Below the pieces are notes generated by a model, which made no database searches, was not told the DNA's origin, and saw only the letters and a list, made by a program, of their open reading frames with translations. Made by a program: the position numbers and the translations under genes. DNA of 64,000 nucleotides, taken from contig NC_092672.1 of assembly GCF_964355755.1 (NCBI RefSeq), positions 4,092,001 to 4,156,000 on the forward strand. Direction: 5' to 3'. The stretch is from Antedon mediterranea. Lineage: Eukaryota > Echinodermata > Crinoidea > Comatulida > Antedonidae. Positions 9,401 through 60,412 of the stretch are shown here, piece after piece (position 1 is the first letter of the stretch; each line of letters starts with the position of its first letter).

Positions 9401-12400
9401 AACTTCATTTCACAAACTGACTGATATAAGAGTGATATTACATCATCGATCAATTCCTGTCGAGACATTCATTCAAATCCCAGGGGAGACAGACATATTA
9501 ATTTCTTATCATAACTTTCAATTATTTCAATTATGTGGCACAATGTTTGCAATTCAGACCATAGAAATTTATGTCATTTAATCAACTGACTGATTCACTA
9601 TCTTTAATTAACAAGCTAAACAATTGTTGTCCAAATTAATGAACACATCTTGAAGATGCATCATGATTACAAAGATGATGGTGGTGATGATGAAAAGTGA
9701 AGATGTTGAAAAATGATGATGATGATGATGATTGAAAAAAATGATGAAAAATGATGATGTTAAAAAGTGAAGATGCTGATGAAAATTGATGATGATGATG
9801 ATGGTGATGATTGAAAAAATGATGATGATTGAAAAAACATTTTTTTTAATTTATTGATGATTGAAAAAACCCACAATGAAACATGATGATGATAATTAAA
9901 AAATGACGATTGAAAATAATGATGATGAAAAATGATGATGATGATTGAAGAAAATGATGATTAAAAAAAATGATGATGATTAAAAAAATGATAATGAAAG
10001 ATTATAAATATTGATGATGATGATGATAAAGATGATGACGATGATAAGGAAGTTCATCCATCATTTCGGGCCCTGTTCCTTTGGACAACCTTCTCCCACT
10101 CTAATTTAACCATGAGCATACACCCTAGAAAATTCTGGTTTACTATTTCATTTTCCCCACCCACCCTTGTATGTTTGGTCCCATCCCTAGAACCCTAGAA
10201 GATAATGATGATGACCATTACAAATGATCTCTTAGGCACACTTAAGTATAAAAACCAAACAAACGCCAGAATGAAAGAAACTCATTATTCGTTATTTACT
10301 CAGTGGTGGTAGCCAATTTATTCCAATCAATATCATTTAAGTATCTATTCTCTACGATAAAGCATGTACTTAATGTTCAATGGTTATTGATTAATATGCA
10401 ATGTGTATATCGTAACTGTGATACTGTACTATTTGTTATACATAGTCAACATAGCGATAATGGTATAAAAAGACAAAATACCGAAAGTAAAATACCAAAA
10501 ACTTTTGTTGAATATAACTTTTTTTTTAAATATTTCATTTTAATGTAACATATAGTTATCCACTTTGACCAAAAATTTGATCCAAAAAAATTGTATTTGT
10601 TCCTGAAAAAATATAAATTAAAGCAAAAAATGGTCAAATTGGCTGCCAGCCAATGGATTTTTGGTTGAATTTAACCATTTATTTTGTCATTTTATAAGTG
10701 AAAACATTTTTTTTTTCTATGGAAGTGATTAACTTTATTAAAACTACAAAATAACATATTCAAAGTCTGATTTAATTAATCTTCATTTTTCATGTTTTTG
10801 GGGGACAATACATCTTTAAGGTTTAAGAACACAATGACATGGAATACAAATTGAAACTACCCTGACTCTGGAAGTGCTCAATATATGTAAATATAAGTCA
10901 AGTCATGGAGGTTCCTCCATGGTCAAGTATAGTCCCAGGAAGGGGGGGGGGGAGGTGCCTGAGTACAAACTTCTGTGAAAATTAGGGAGTGGGATTATAC
11001 TCAGTGGCATAAACAATAGATTTACCAAAGTCTTGTGTCTTAATTTACCCAAAATAATTAGAGGTTAGGATTATACTCAAACATAGAATTATATTTCATC
11101 ATATTTTTAGAAATGCCAGAATGATGAAACCGGTACTTTAAAATAAAAACACGTTTTGATATTGAGTGCTGTTGTCATGTACAATACAGCAACTGTCGCC
11201 CTACAATGTTGTGTACATCCATGAAAAACAATTTTTTGCTTTAAGGGCTGATATTGCTAGTAAGCATGGTTGTCGGTATACAGATGCCTTCTTTATATTT
11301 TCTAAAAGCAGACATGCACACTGCTCTATATTAATAGCGGTTTGCACAGCTCGTGGCGAATGCTAATTACCGAAATGCAAAATATTTCTACAATAATCGC
11401 GATAGTTGTCATATTTTATGATTTATTAAATACTTAAAATTCCAATTGCTAGATCAATTATACATGCAGCCAGTTGATTGAACAATTAATTGGTTGGATA
11501 GATAATTAAGCTATCAACGAGCCTTTTAATGAGCCAATCAATTATTAATTACAAATCCTATTGCTGCTATTGGAGGGCATCCACTCAATAGAAATCATTG
11601 TTTGTTTTTAGAAAAAATTACAGACAATGATATAATTATTTGTGAATCATTATCGCCTTATAAATAAAACTATATAATATTATATATAATTTACCGTTAC
11701 AGTATAGTGACATAAATGTTATCAAAGTATAAATATTTAAAGCACACGTTATATTATTATTATTATTGTATTGTTAAAACTGTCAAGATACTATAAGTTT
11801 TCTTTAATATAGGACATGATAATTATGATGTAAAATGTATATGCTTGCTGTTTTACAGTAAATTTAAATATGTTATTACAATATTGCCAATGACAGTTTT
11901 ATGCTTGCATCTTATCGGGGATTATTGTTGCTGTGACCCAAACCTATAACCTTAAAGATAATCTCAGTAGGTGCGAAAATGCAGTAGCATCATACCATTG
12001 CATCTTACCTTATATTCCGACTCTAGCCTATTGTGTTTGACTTTGTATTCTGGAAGGAACATAACCTCACTCTGTGGAATTGGCCATGATGTTTGTGAAG
12101 CCTGGTAAGGGTCCCTTAGGACGGATGCCTTCCGACAGTGTCTAGTAGCTTTGGACCATGTTCTCTGAAAGCCTTGCTCACTGACGCTTTTATGCATGTA
12201 ACGGTACGCTATCTGCAAATGAAAGAAACAAAAGAAAGATGTAATAGCAAATGGCCATTTAAATGGTTAAATTAAATTGGGTGGATGACTGGGTGTTGGT
12301 GGTGGTTGTAGGTTCGGTGGTGTTTGAGGGTTGGTGGTGGTGGTGGTTGTATGGTTGGTGTTGGTGGGTGTATGGTTGGTGGAGGTGGGTTGGTTGGTGG

Positions 12401-24297: not shown

Positions 24298-24455
24298 GGC
24301 CAATATACACAGACGAGCGGTAACGGTAAAAAAAATGTAAAATCATGTTATTTCTTATGACCATTTACACAAAGCGTGGAGCGAACGGGCTGAGGATAGA
24401 TACATTTTCCACGTGAGACAAGCTACGCGGTTTTCCGCTTTCCGTCACCTGGCCT
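24298..24455. mobile_element. family E inverted-repeat element, copy 2
   Basis: It carries ACACAGACGAGCGGTAACGG at one end and GCGGTTTTCCGCTTTCCGTC at the other, with GACCATTTACACA inside as in 6283-6441. Confidence 0.6.
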
Positions 24456-24467
24456 TAAAGCTTGGTT

Positions 24468-24638
24468 CCCACTAGAACGTAACGCAAGGACGTAAACGCA
24501 ACGCAAGCGTTTTAACCAATGACAAGCGAAGTTATAGACAGTTAGCAATCACAAGCGAATAAGCCATCGCTTGTGATTGGTCAATTCACTTGCGTTGCAT
24601 TACGTCCTTGTGTTGCGTCGCTAGTGGGAACCACGCTT
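24468..24638. mobile_element. family B MITE, copy 1
   Basis: The ends are AAGCTTGGTTCCCACTAG and the mirror CTAGTGGGAACCACGCTT with TA outside each. Inner arms GTAACGCAAGGACGTAA pair with TTACGTCCTTGTGTTGC. No coding capacity. Confidence 0.85.
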
Positions 24639-25450
24639 TATAGGCCTACAATGTGACGTTTTACCATGTATCAAGAATTGCAGAATTGCCAGTATGTACT
24701 CTATGACTGAACTACTAGTAGATTAAAAAAACCGAAATCAGTACGGATTCGGGTAACAACTCAGAATCCTACCAACTTAGAAAAATACAATTACTCATAA
24801 AATGTTTTACGGTTTCTTACAATTCGGTTTAATAATTGAAAGTGAATAATGAACTTTGACTGGTAAATAACGTGATCTTATTTACTGTTCAATTCAAGCG
24901 ATGTAGGCCTACAAACATATTTTCTAAAATGTAAATAAAGTAAAATGGGTTTAATGTAGGCTAAAATAGACATGATGCTTCAAGAGCGAGTAACATGCAA
25001 TAGATGGAATACCAGAGATTGCACCTAGGCTAAATAGTGGTTCAGTAATACCAGTAGAACATTAGACAAACAGGTAGCCTACCATAATTATGAACAAGAT
25101 ATTAAAATATTATTTTATAATAAATATTGACCACTTTACCTTGACCTTTATTTATTGTTAAACTGATAAACACGAAATTGGCCCTGTATCGAAGTTCGAT
25201 ATCACACACGCGATACAACTCGGACATAGTAATAATTAGATTCGGACATTCATTTACTAAATGCAAATCGTGTCATAGTTCATCATTTGCATAAAACGTG
25301 CATGGGACCGGCCACCTGGATATATTTTCTTTTAAATTATTTATACATTTATTTATATGAGAATGTAGATTTGTTATATGGTAAAATATAGTTATGATTT
25401 TGTATAATTTTATATTTTTGTCGTATTGTCGGTTTGATGGAATTTAAAAC

Positions 25451-25915: not shown

Positions 25916-26335
25916 GCACTGGGAATCAGTAAACATCAACTGCTGATAATCTTACAATATTATTAACACATCTCTTATTGCTTTATAAACACACAATTTA
26001 TACTATGCATATTATCTCAATAAAGGTTCTATACACTAGTTATTTTCTGAAAACCCAGTATTCCTACTATTAGCATGGAATATAATTCACCCGTTCGTTT
26101 CAATACAAAGAAAAGTTCGCTTAATATGGGTGTCCCCATAAACAGGGGGTCCCCCCTAAACAGGGGTGTCCCAAGGGGTTCTATTATAGGCCTACTGCAG
26201 TTAAATCAGGGAGGTATATTTTATATCTCCCTGGTTAAATTTCAACTTGTCACCGGGACGAGAGAACCTTATGCAAATAGACGATGCGGATTTCGAAAAG
26301 TCCGGAAGTAAACTTTACTAAATGCAGGCCACCGG

Positions 26336-26781: not shown

Positions 26782-26819
26782 GGTAGAGCATGGAGGTATT
26801 TATACCTCCATGGGTAGAG
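26782..26819. mobile_element. ultra-short palindromic insert with 7-bp flanking repeats, copy 2
   Basis: Arms CATGGAGGTAT and ATACCTCCATG with a TT centre form a 24-nt perfect hairpin (26789-26812). GGTAGAG lies directly on both sides (26782-26788 and 26813-26819). Confidence 0.7.
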
Positions 26820-35400: not shown

Positions 35401-38400
35401 TTTGCATTTGGTTGATCTTTCTTCCTACAATCACCACCACAACGTAGAAAGCATACAATGCCAACATACCTAAAACAAAACAAAACTGTTTAATGTCTTT
35501 ATATACCAATCTCAAGCTCGAGGTTAAAGTAATGTCTTCAATACAAGGTATGAACCATGATGATTATGGTCTATTCATATGTCAAATTCCTGATGTTGGT
35601 ACAATGTATATATTATTGTATATTTAAATCAATTGTGTTGCATAGCACTGTGTAAATTATATATAAATCATACTGTCAAATTATAGAAACAGTGCTCATA
35701 TTCGGAACATGATCTCATAATCGCATCGAGCAAAATTTCTCTGGCGGGATTCGAACCTGCGACCTCTCGCTTACAGGGCGAGTATAATACCACTAGACCA
35801 CAGAGCCATATATGGTATTATCACAGATTTTCACCCACCAGATACATTTTCTCAAACAACAAACGCCCTCACAATCAGTGATTGTTTTGTAAGTATGCTA
35901 CCTTTCTAGTTTCCATTACCCATTATATCATTAATATAACATACATTATTGTAATATATTATATACAATAAATTTAATTAAAATACAAATATTTTACCTA
36001 TAGCTGTCTTTAAACTAAGACACTGTTTCCATATTACAAAGTATACCCAATACACTGCAGCCATGTAGAAGATGACATCACGGAGAAAAGGTCGTTCGGC
36101 CATTTTGAAAGGAGACACCCAGGCAATTGCCCCAGTAACTATTGTGGTAACAAAAATCCCTGCACCTAAAATTGATAAAATAAAAATGTTTTGTAATAAT
36201 AACACTGTATATACACTTAGACTGGTATATTTACAGTATGTCACTCAAATAGTAGAAACATTGCTAAATGATCGATAAATGTTATAATCTTACCAAAAAG
36301 AGCACCGAATGCCAAGCCAGCATCGCCGTCATGTGATTCTTTGATTGCCGCCACCAAGCTAAAAATATCTGGAGCTCCATTGCCGAACGCAAGAAATGTA
36401 ACACCCTAGATTATAGATAACTGAGTGAAGGAAGGAGCAACACCACAACCTTACACAACTTTTGATATATTATTTTCTTCAGCCTAAAATTGTGTACTGT
36501 GTTTTTGCTAGAGATGGAAGGTGCCATATATACAGGGCTTACTCTGAGATGTTTCAGACTTTATTAGCCTTATGGAATGACCTATGACCTACCCTAATGG
36601 GTGGTCGGTCATCTGGACCTAGAAACCAGCAAACCTGTTCCCTAAAATTGAATGAGAAAGCATGCCCCAACTTTACAATGTGCACAATGAATTATACGTG
36701 ACCTAGCTAGGTCGTCTGAAATAGAAAGCTCTTTCCATTGTCTGTAATCTTATCTTTATACAAGGTTTTAAAGAATGTATTCAAACAACCAACAATAGGT
36801 AACAAACTGGAACAGGATCTGTAGTATAGTATTCTATACTACGATCATACAGTAAGTTACATTTAAAATTGTGAATAATAAAATAAGTGTCTAAGTCTTT
36901 AAACTGCACAATGTTGATGGGCATAACTTAACAGGGATTACTATAGGGCCTATAGGATTTAATATTAATGTAGGGGTTTTTTGTCATATTTTTTTCAACC
37001 ATGGAAGATTATCTACAAGGCTAAAATATAATATGTTCTTTATAAAAGTTTTTTTAAAAAAGATAAATATAGAAATAAAACAGACAGTAAAAAGGATACA
37101 GCTATATTTTGACTCAGTCTTAGCGTATGTGATATGACATTTAACGAAGGGCAAAAGCTGTAAAAAGAAATAAAAAAACATTTTCAAAATAAATAACATA
37201 AAATACAGTATAATATGTTATTGTAAAATAAAAAATTAACATAAATAATGAACTATTAACATAAATTTCCAAGTTAATTACCGTATTAGTACAATTATAT
37301 AATACAGTTTACAAACAGTAATTGAGTTTTAAAATTGACAATATAAACAATACAAATTTGTATGAGATTTTATATCATATATTTATATTATTTATCATTA
37401 AAAAAAAAAGTCTATTAACGTAAATGTATTAGTTAATTATTAGTACAAATATACACAGTTTACAAACAGTAATTGAGTTTTAAAATTGACAAAATACACA
37501 ATAAAAATTGTTAATTGTTATTAAGACATTATTATTATTATTTTTTAGGAAACTCAAATAAACATATATGCAAAAAAGTAAATAAATGTGAAACACTGAC
37601 ATTTTTAGAGTGTTTAATAAAGTCTCCTCACCCTCCCACCCAACCTTCCTGAAAACAACAAGCTTTTTTCTTAGTGGAGCCATAGAGATATCATAATATC
37701 TCTATGGTGGAGCACATTCAGACCACTTCATTTCATGTTAAAGTTTGGATATTTTCTCTGGTAAACTGGTAAATGTAATTATCTGCTTTTATACTCACTA
37801 ATCTTCTGCTGTGGCTCCAAGAGCTATAAACAAGTACAGGACCCAGCATAACTGAAAAAACAGAAGACATATGTTTAATAATTGTTATGGATAATATACA
37901 GTATATGTTCATTTTCCTATAGCTAAACACTGTAAAAATTAAACCTTTTGAAGAAAAATTGTCCCCGAAAAAGTAATTTAAAAAAAAAAAAATTTTATTT
38001 CACATAATAGTTTTGTTTTTTTTTTTTACCTGGAAAAACTGTAATTTAAAGCAAAAAATATCAAATTGACTGGAATTCAATTTGTTTTTGGTTGAATTTA
38101 ATGGTTTATTGTGTCTTTTTACAAGTGAAAACATTGTTTTTTTTTCTACAGAAGTGATTAACTGGTCTATTGAAATGGCCTATTCAAAGTCTTTTTAAAA
38201 TTATTCTTCATTTTTCATATTTTTGTAGGACAATACACATTTAAAGCTTTTTCATTTTTAATATGAACAAGCACAGTTCAATACCTAACAATTTAAAATA
38301 AATTTTTCTAAATTTTTCTCCATTTACATTTGTTTCTCATTCTAATTAAACTCATAGAAACTCTACAAAGGTCATAAAAAAGAAAATTAAACTTTCGATT

Positions 38401-39792
38401 AGCTACTGCAATTATTAATGTAATTAATACATTTCATTTACCAAAAAAAAGGTGATATGTTTATATTATTATACTCCATAAGAAATAATTGACTTACAAA
38501 AAATAACAATATTGGAATAACATATTTTTCATTAGGTGCTTTACAGTAAATGAATTGAGTATAAGCGATGAAGCCACCATCTGTCTGGCAAGCCGAAAGG
38601 TTTTTGATGTAGTCACAACGCTCATCAAACGGTAATTGATGAAAAGAACGGCACTGCAAAAACAAAAATGTAAAATAGATCAAAAGGAAAGGAGCTTCCA
38701 AATTCAAAGTACTGTTTGATTAATATTGATTAAAAAATATTGGTGATATAGAGTTTTATGATGTTTTATTTTTTAGATATAATTTACCCTTTTATTCCTT
38801 ATACTATCTTCAAAATGTCTATGATACCAAAATAACATTACGATTTTTGTTATTGAGGTGTACATATTTAATGTACTAATTAGTTAACATTACAAGGGCG
38901 AATCTAGCAATTGTATATGAGGGGTGAATTTAGAACAACAGCCTGAGGGTCTGGTTTGAGTATTATAAGAAGAGTGAGGATCTAAATCCTCTTCTGAATT
39001 AGGTAACCTCTTACTTCTATGTCATCATCTTCCTTTCCCAACAATGGTTTGATTGACGTTGCATTTTTTGATTCGCAATAGTCGGTATTCCGGTTGCGAT
39101 TCTTTTCAACTGCACATTGCTACCATCAGAACAAATGTATAAAATTTAAAATAAACTTTTATATATTAAACATGCAATTGTAACTGTAGATCTTCATACA
39201 TTAATATTTATTTCGGCCTACAGGTCTCACTGGAATGTGCGCTTGTTGAATGTAGAAACAGTTTTTTAAATAATTTTCCTATATTGAATTTATTCTCATA
39301 AAAAAAAACCATATTATTTATATTGGCTATAGGCCTAGAAAAGTATTTTAGTAATACAGTATTATATCATAGTCAAAACATCATACTCATAGTCAATAGT
39401 TGACTAGGATTATATCATAGAGATATTATAATATTATATCTCTATGTATGATTGTACTGTATAGTAAGTAAGGTAGGTATTATAATTTTATATAAAGTCT
39501 AAAATATTTTATTAATAAAATATTAAATTATCAATCTTACGTCTGTGTTTTCATTTCCTAACAAAGATTCAATTGAAAGCAAATTCCTGGAAGCAATAAT
39601 GGTATCGACTGTTTTCCGGTGGCGGTATCCGACGGCTCCATCTACCTGGTCGGCTAAACCAAAACGTTTTTCAGCGAAGGTAGGCCTACGATGAGCGTCG
39701 GGGAAAACACTTTTTGTTAGACAAATTAAAGCTAATGTAACTGCAAAAAACGATACTGCTGTAACGCTTTTAATTAAAACTCTTGTCGACAT
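29453..39792 (-). CDS. SLC8B1: NCLX, mitochondrial sodium/calcium exchanger
   Basis: Eighteen exons join in frame on minus: 39792-39541, 39119-39015, 38653-38498, 37851-37799, 37157-37100, 36405-36294, 36165-35998, 35469-35365, 34632-34510, 34200-34093, 33917-33766, 33047-32915, 31975-31851, 31625-31548, 31435-31360, 30876-30796, 30586-30522, 29656-29453. The product is 717 residues (human 584), longer mainly in the N-terminus and central loop. The alpha-1 repeat has GVTFLAFGNGAPDIFS and the alpha-2 repeat ILGLTLLAWGNSIG, then MARQGFPRMAISACFGGPF, all NCLX hallmarks. The family exchanges Na+ (or Li+) for matrix Ca2+ at the inner mitochondrial membrane. Residues RRRES (Ser335) match the PKA-type site known in mammals. 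Intron 12 uses a GC donor. Internal ATG 39792 is the first in frame. It is head-to-head with MORN3. Confidence 0.95.
29763..30110 (-). mobile_element. 5S rRNA-derived SINE (SINE3 type)
   Basis: Minus-strand 30110-29990 reads as a complete 5S rRNA-like sequence (GTTAAGCAACGTTGGGCCTG, TAGAGCTTGGATGGGAGACC, TGGGAATAGCGGGTGCTG), the right 121-nt length. It is followed by about 200 bp of unrelated body and ends in an AATAAAATAAAATAAA tail. Internal 5S promoter boxes would allow RNA polymerase III transcription. It sits in NCLX intron 17 in the same orientation as the gene. A plain 5S gene is unlikely because of substitutions in the 5' half, the extra body and the tail. Confidence 0.82.
32685..32838 (+). 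mobile_element. LINE 3' remnant (CR1/L2-like)
   Basis: A decayed C-terminal reverse-transcriptase frame is followed by GTATAAGCGCTATATAAATC, the typical CR1/L2 3' end. It lies antisense in NCLX intron 12. Confidence 0.55.
33682..33752. mobile_element. family A MITE, copy 7, truncated
   Basis: Only the left end AAGCTTTTTCTACACTATCA and the first 50 bp are present. It abuts NCLX exon 11 within intron 11. Confidence 0.6.
35737..35807 (-). tRNA. tRNA-Thr(UGU)-like sequence, possibly pseudogene
   Basis: The minus strand reads GGCTCTG, then TGGTCTAGTGG (A box), anticodon stem CTCGC/GCGAG around loop CCTGTAA (anticodon TGT), and GGTTCGAATCC (B box). Five of seven acceptor pairs form and one T-stem pair is mismatched. 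Loop position 33 is C where T is nearly universal. It lies in NCLX intron 7. A decayed tRNA gene or SINE head is as likely as a working tRNA. Confidence 0.45.
37674..37713. mobile_element. ultra-short palindromic insert with 7-bp flanking repeats, copy 3
   Basis: Arms CATAGAGATAT and ATATCTCTATG with a CATA centre form a 26-nt hairpin (37681-37706). GTGGAGC lies directly on both sides (37674-37680 and 37707-37713). NCLX intron 4 starts at 37798, so this is inside that intron. Confidence 0.7.
37950..38246. mobile_element. family C MITE, copy 6, degenerate
   Basis: Ends AATTGTCCCCGAAAA and AGGACAATACACATTTAAAG, with the interior changed (TCAAATTGACTGGAATTCAA). It lies in NCLX intron 3. Confidence 0.65.
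39416..39446. repeat. short palindrome, same arms, no clear flanking repeat
   Basis: Arms CATAGAGATAT and ATATCTCTATG, identical to those at 37681-37706, surround a 9-nt AT centre. The flanking bases are not a direct repeat. NCLX intron 1. Confidence 0.55.

Positions 39793-44648: not shown

Positions 44649-60412
<15,764 letters not shown>

Follow-up and report, generated by a model that had tools for sequence, protein, structure and literature searches.

Short palindromes flanked by 7-bp duplications in the crinoid Antedon mediterranea are probably excision footprints of P-superfamily transposons

Short palindromes bracketed by 7-bp direct repeats occur at hundreds of places in the genome of the crinoid Antedon mediterranea, and we propose, with a probability of about 0.92, that they are natural excision footprints of cut-and-paste transposons of the P superfamily. 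Our analysis covered a window of 64,000 nucleotides (C3:4092001-4156000) and the genome around it (354 Mb in 18 contigs). A sequence-only reading of the window had described three palindromes of the form CATRGAGR...YCTCYATG with exact 7-bp direct repeats, and had taken them for insertions of a tiny palindromic element. All three were re-read exactly as claimed, and exact flanks throughout the genome bear out their interpretation as insertion sites with 7-bp target duplications. A tiny palindrome inserting by itself is nevertheless disfavoured, since a P element with the same ends resides in the genome and one-armed scars are found. Sites A, B and C below are the three palindromes of that reading; site D, absent from it, was found by an arm-agnostic scan of the window and has the same build.

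10897..10903, unstranded (.), left copy of the site A target duplication, GTCAAGT, as read from the sequence
10904..10921, unstranded (.), site A scar, 18 nt, CATGGAGGTTCCTCCATG, made up of 9 + 8 nt of the two ends and 1 nt of filler
10922..10928, unstranded (.), right copy of the site A target duplication, GTCAAGT
26200..26206, unstranded (.), left copy of the site D target duplication, GTTAAAT
26207..26233 (C3:4118207-4118233), unstranded (.), site D scar, 27 nt, CAGGGAGGTATATTTTATATCTCCCTG, with arms CAGGGAGRTATA, an arm type that has 31 places in the genome
26234..26240, unstranded (.), right copy of the site D target duplication, GTTAAAT
26782..26788, unstranded (.), left copy of the site B target duplication, GGTAGAG
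26789..26812, unstranded (.), site B scar, 24 nt, CATGGAGGTATTTATACCTCCATG, made up of 11 + 14 nt of the 32-bp end with a 1-nt overlap
26813..26819, unstranded (.), right copy of the site B target duplication, GGTAGAG
37674..37680, unstranded (.), left copy of the site C target duplication, GTGGAGC
37681..37706, unstranded (.), site C scar, 26 nt, CATAGAGATATCATAATATCTCTATG, of the CATAGAGATAT family (454 genome places)
37707..37713, unstranded (.), right copy of the site C target duplication, GTGGAGC
39416..39446, unstranded (.), fifth palindrome, 31 nt, with CATAGAGATAT arms and 7-bp flanks that do not match

Perfect 8-nt arms with an exact 7-bp repeat occur three times in the window, compared with two cases in total over 100 first-order Markov resamplings; when up to one arm mismatch is allowed the window has five cases, compared with 32 in 100 resamplings, and these five are sites A to D plus a case at 39368 that seems unrelated. 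Only 8-9 nt of each end remain at site A, which could have originated in another family. The fifth palindrome may be a CATAGAGATAT-family scar that is old or rearranged. Adjoining it, ATTATATCATAG is present twice about 50 bp apart (window 39349-39460), perhaps a rearranged older scar as well. Self-comparison of the five sites with 400 bp on either side revealed no empty site in the window. The genes of the window comprise KDM2-like F-box, PHD and CXXC exons and a MORN-repeat gene. It also holds an inverted-repeat pair, 48299-48484 and 24455-24640 (98% over 186 nt), with further copies near 54364, 55898 and 59753, which is perhaps a MITE.

Genome-wide, the same architecture is found with three arm types. 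The first, CATGGAGGT..ACCTCCATG, occurs at 599 places (pattern CATGGAGGTN{0,12}ACCTCCATG), the second, CATAGAGATAT..ATATCTCTATG, at 454 (pattern CATAGAGATATN{0,30}ATATCTCTATG), and the third (CAGGGAGRTATN{0,30}ATAYCTCCCTG) at 31, window site D among them; these counts take in copies within larger repeats and one tandem array, the latter included in the 454. The pattern CATGGAGGTATN{9,38}ATACCTCCATG, which has another gap range, occurs at 167 places that may overlap in part with the 599. Reversed-pattern controls gave 0 in all four cases. Two arm patterns had no match in a set of viral contigs from which records close to the window's genome may be absent. At L117:1159, GGTCCAT, CATGGAACTATCTTATATTATATTCCATG and GGTCCAT follow one another directly and may represent an additional scar family.

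Comparison of the flanking 7-bp repeats with chance, the genome-wide check that the sequence-only reading had proposed, came out clearly on the side of target duplication. Among 44 sampled places of the first type, taken from the first 50 matches listed and including two pairs that are copies of one locus, the duplication is exact at 30, has one mismatch at 5 and two to six at 9, while an exact 8-bp match is found at none. Random pairing of these flanks gave 0.79 exact 7-bp matches, about 0.68 of which is expected from self-pairing, leaving a chance expectation of about 0.1. Exact duplications also flank 14 of 19 single places sampled for the second type and 11 of the 20 fetched (of 31) for the third, where three more have one mismatch, so that over the three arm types together 55 of 83 sampled sites are exact. 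At the remaining sites (14/44, 5/19 and 9/20) some flanks differ by one or two mismatches and some are unrelated. Symmetrised over 29 distinct first-family sites, the duplications follow a motif of approximately GTTNAAC. At L046 a CATGGAGG palindrome has inverted rather than direct flanks (GTTATAT and ATATAAC), which lengthen the palindrome.

The sequence-only reading had also called for a longer element with the same ends and a transposase, and such an element exists. A Pfam search returned 35 genome matches to the P-type RNase H domain, and reading outward from one of them delimited an element of 6,324 bp (C11:13871856-13878179) with perfect 32-bp inverted ends, CATGGAGGTATAAAAATAGAAGGAGAGAGCTC, whose first bases are the scar arm, and with GATACCG, 7 bp, on both sides. 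Separate open-reading-frame pieces of the element match TNP-like_RNaseH_N (4.9e-24), the GBD (8.2e-06) and RNaseH_C (1.3e-05), that is PF21787, PF21788 and PF21789, all above the curated cut-off. One piece matches the solved Drosophila P transposase (PDB 6P5A) with an E value of 6.3e-05 over a stretch that includes SDxPHLxK; FDEMKV aligned in a weaker stretch that is non-significant by itself. In the five unspliced pieces no THAP domain was detected at E <= 0.01, and a zf-AD-like match fell below its cut-off (25.3 vs 28 bits). Judged from these domain matches, a P-type RNase H fold split by a GTP-binding insertion, the element is assigned to the P superfamily, and its ends agree with those of that superfamily, in which terminal inverted repeats start with CA and the duplication is 7 or 8 bp.

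Relatives of this parent are present as well. An 883-bp non-autonomous element on C1, flanked by CCCAATC, has a left end identical at 32 of 32 positions and a right end about 94% identical to the parent's, and C2 carries a right end that is 99% identical over 105 bp. For a second parent-like right end (L137), no matching left end was found in 401 bp at the expected distance (L173). On the strand opposite the transposase, the parent (L121+L012+L122) has open reading frames encoding a PHD finger and a 350-aa product with the look of a second gene; relatives of the latter are found in Anneissia, Acanthaster, Patiria and Lytechinus. Several transposase and accessory matches lie on contigs of the same length, which suggests a two-gene P-element lineage in echinoderms. 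A different P-like element, L031:195-2071, has ends CATGCGTCAAATCG and CATGTGTCAAATAG (CATG) and a 7-bp duplication, TAACGCG.

The first 17 nt of the 32-bp end occur at 299 places in the genome (151 + 148). Among the matches listed we sampled 38 arms, all of the CATGGAGG family and selected for having no listed partner arm next to them; not all of them count as independent, ten belonging to one host repeat and eight to another. Two of the 38, which extend over the full 32 bp, are ends of elements, and the other 36 stop at 17 nt (n = 6), 18 nt (n = 22), 19 nt (n = 4), 20 nt (n = 2) or 21 nt (n = 2), with none stopping between 22 and 31 nt. The matches of 19-21 nt (8 of the 36 scar arms) may reflect chance or copied bases. 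From scar lengths we infer a stagger of about 18 nt, 17 or 18 both fitting many junctions.

Some scars have one arm or strongly unequal arms. At L136 a single 18-nt end lies between two copies of CTGTGAA, and at L091 between two copies of GTTGAAT, in which case the match to the end extends one base further, into the first base of the duplication. In the CATAGAGATAT family, L193 consists of one 18-nt end followed by GG, and L192 and L197 of 18 nt, filler and 3 nt left from the opposite end; the first 18 nt of these three were set by the search pattern. L078 is a further asymmetric or one-armed scar. Scars would be expected to show such structures, whereas a palindromic element would not.

To describe the joins we assembled 52 distinct scars, requiring an exact duplication and dropping repeats of one locus, a non-random set, since we deliberately included long inserts and lone arms. 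Overlaps of 1-4 nt between the two ends are present in 30 scars, single-base overlaps being open to chance; in 8 the ends abut, and in 14 they are separated by filler (e.g. L089, L110). A 20-mer with a TATA overlap recurs at 7 targets and a 34-mer at 4. The palindromes thus keep at most about 18 nt per end and are joined by microhomology, bluntly or through filler. At L022:2578-2984 a 407-bp insert with TTATTAT flanks carries two inverted 17-nt arms, CATGGAGGAAATATACA; its interior, by eye, resembles a 5S-rRNA-derived SINE, which may have been captured when an excision break was repaired.

These observations can be accommodated by a model in which a multi-kb element with inverted ends CATRGAGR... 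inserts and duplicates 7 bp, with the preference for GTTNAAC-like targets that the duplications display. On excision, the transposase would make a staggered cut: one strand would be cut at the edge of the element and the other within the 32-bp inverted end, about 18 nt from the edge. Each donor end would thereby be left with a 3′ transposon tail of about 18 nt, as suggested by the largest retained length and by P-element biochemistry. End joining could then repair the break through microhomology, fill-in or filler, as the junction shapes imply. Because both tails would be the same sequence, inverted, the product would be a short palindrome between two target duplications, and arm changes would be paired in both arms because the arms derive from the two inverted ends of one element. 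The scars have the features expected of footprints: both duplications are kept at most sampled sites, retention in the sampled CATGGAGG arms is limited to about the length of the overhang, and joins are variable, one-sided ones included.

Empty sites, which the sequence-only reading had proposed to seek in other individuals or species, were found within the same genome. A host repeat with a single GTCAAAC at the site is present at 32 places (<=3 mismatches; control 0), and in other copies of this repeat the site carries palindromes, among them scars of several kinds together with GTCAAAC units in more than one copy (L076, L085, L087, L094, L095, L098, L099). Repeated rounds of insertion and excision at a single preferred target would leave such a pattern.

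The CATAGAGATAT family requires separate consideration. A 36-nt insert makes up 11 of 43 places among the matches listed when the tandem array is counted once, and at 7 of 10 single places fetched the identical 36-mer is flanked by different, exact 7-bp duplications. Its parent, which would have CATAGAGATATTATAG ends, was not found around further P-transposase loci or behind 20 of the 51 arms that have a base other than A at position 19, and therefore the parent of site C is one that we infer. In a tandem array at L147 (C1:19904560-19905260), 36-nt scars are split by GTCCAGG, giving a 43-bp period (36 + 7); the central two bases are flipped in two units, and one substitution is common to two neighbouring units, as tandem duplication would produce. 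At L156 the 36-mer has, by eye, an 8-bp duplication, CTACTTAC, as in some Galileo copies.

These properties raise the possibility that palindromes of 34-36 bp, composed of two abutting ends, are themselves mobile in trans through a P-type transposase, with shorter palindromes arising as later deletions; the 36-bp CATAGAGATAT-family palindrome, two abutting 18-nt P ends, would be the unit so re-mobilised. The identity of the 36-mer at different targets, the lack of a CATAGAGATAT-family parent among the loci searched and the 43-bp period of the array are all in keeping with this, and many of the other listed CATAGAGATAT inserts can, in our reading, be taken as a 36-mer with a deletion or insertion. 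However, 36 nt is 18 + 18, the length expected of a join with full retention, and the 34-mer is 18 + 18 - 2, so that 36-mers at different targets are also explained by a recurrent scar. One-armed and strongly asymmetric scars with exact duplications are present in both families (L091, L136, L193, L192, L197), the CATGGAGG family has a full parent, eight 38-mers that were fetched are one locus copied inside a larger repeat, and the substitution shared by neighbouring array units fits tandem duplication. We regard re-mobilisation as improbable, both for such palindromes in general and for the CATAGAGATAT 36-mer in particular. If this were true, no known transposon would be smaller than such an excision scar, and every P element that departs might leave a new mobile unit behind.

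It could also be argued that the palindromes are P elements with extreme internal deletions, produced by interrupted gap repair and not by the joining of tails. Internally deleted P elements are common in general, and the 883-bp relative is an example in this genome, but the ends of such deletions should scatter over and beyond the 32-bp end, and none of the 38 arms ends at 22-31 nt; we consider this explanation very unlikely. Chance palindromes or functional hairpins with no link to transposition might be anticipated in an AT-rich window with 65 hairpins of at least 8 paired bases. Yet Markov resampling produced only 2 cases in 100 windows, the genome-wide pattern controls produced 0, and exact 7-bp duplications flank 55 of the 83 sampled sites. 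On the strength of these three tests chance hairpins were rejected, and an origin unconnected with transposition seems to us hardly credible.

The proposed P-type footprints have close parallels in other systems. Repair junctions of the Drosophila P{wa} element comprise 17-nt tails, 8-bp duplications, and microhomology, blunt or templated-filler joins (PMC2895639), and a 17-nt stagger of the P transposase cut has been described (PMC7776569). The P{wa} products resemble the Antedon scars in the target duplication, the retention of no more than about 17 nt of each end, the palindromic outcome and ends starting with CATG, whereas they come from the laboratory, from one site and with 8 bp/17 nt, as opposed to natural scars at hundreds of places with 7 bp/about 18 nt (PMC2895639). 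Of the P{wa} junctions, 29% use microhomologies of 5-10 nt, and those listed remove most of the ends (PMC2895639), so that our arm-based search would miss junctions of this kind. Our data suggest that in Antedon a 7-bp duplication is paired with a stagger of about 18 nt, compared with 8 bp and 17 nt in Drosophila, and we speculate that duplication plus stagger equals 25 in both cases (8 + 17 and 7 + 18). Galileo, a P-superfamily element of Drosophila, likewise makes 7-bp, rarely 8-bp, duplications with a palindromic preference (GTATTAC, vs approximately GTTNAAC here), but has long inverted ends that reach thousands of bases in some copies; the word footprint is absent from the main text of that paper (PMC4168063). 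Zebrafish Pdre2/THAP9 shares CATA ends, a P-type transposase and excision products with end deletions, and differs in its 8-bp duplication and 13-bp terminal inverted repeat; according to the preprint, zfTHAP9 excision in S2 cells leaves larger flanking deletions (PMC10983969). Within the open-access literature searched, no report of genome-wide natural P footprints was recognised by title. MITEs are mobile units that are short, palindrome-like and flanked by target duplications; scars, in contrast, have no interior, and their length is limited by the offset of the cut.

Scarring by P-element excision is a known process, of which this echinoderm genome appears to preserve a large natural record. 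Repair after P-element excision has been studied mainly at engineered Drosophila sites. Annotation pipelines could take such scars for tiny elements. The scars count departures, which escape a census restricted to resident elements. The hundreds of natural repair outcomes can be used as an assay, on a large scale, of where the cut falls, how microhomology is used and how filler is synthesised in an echinoderm germ line.
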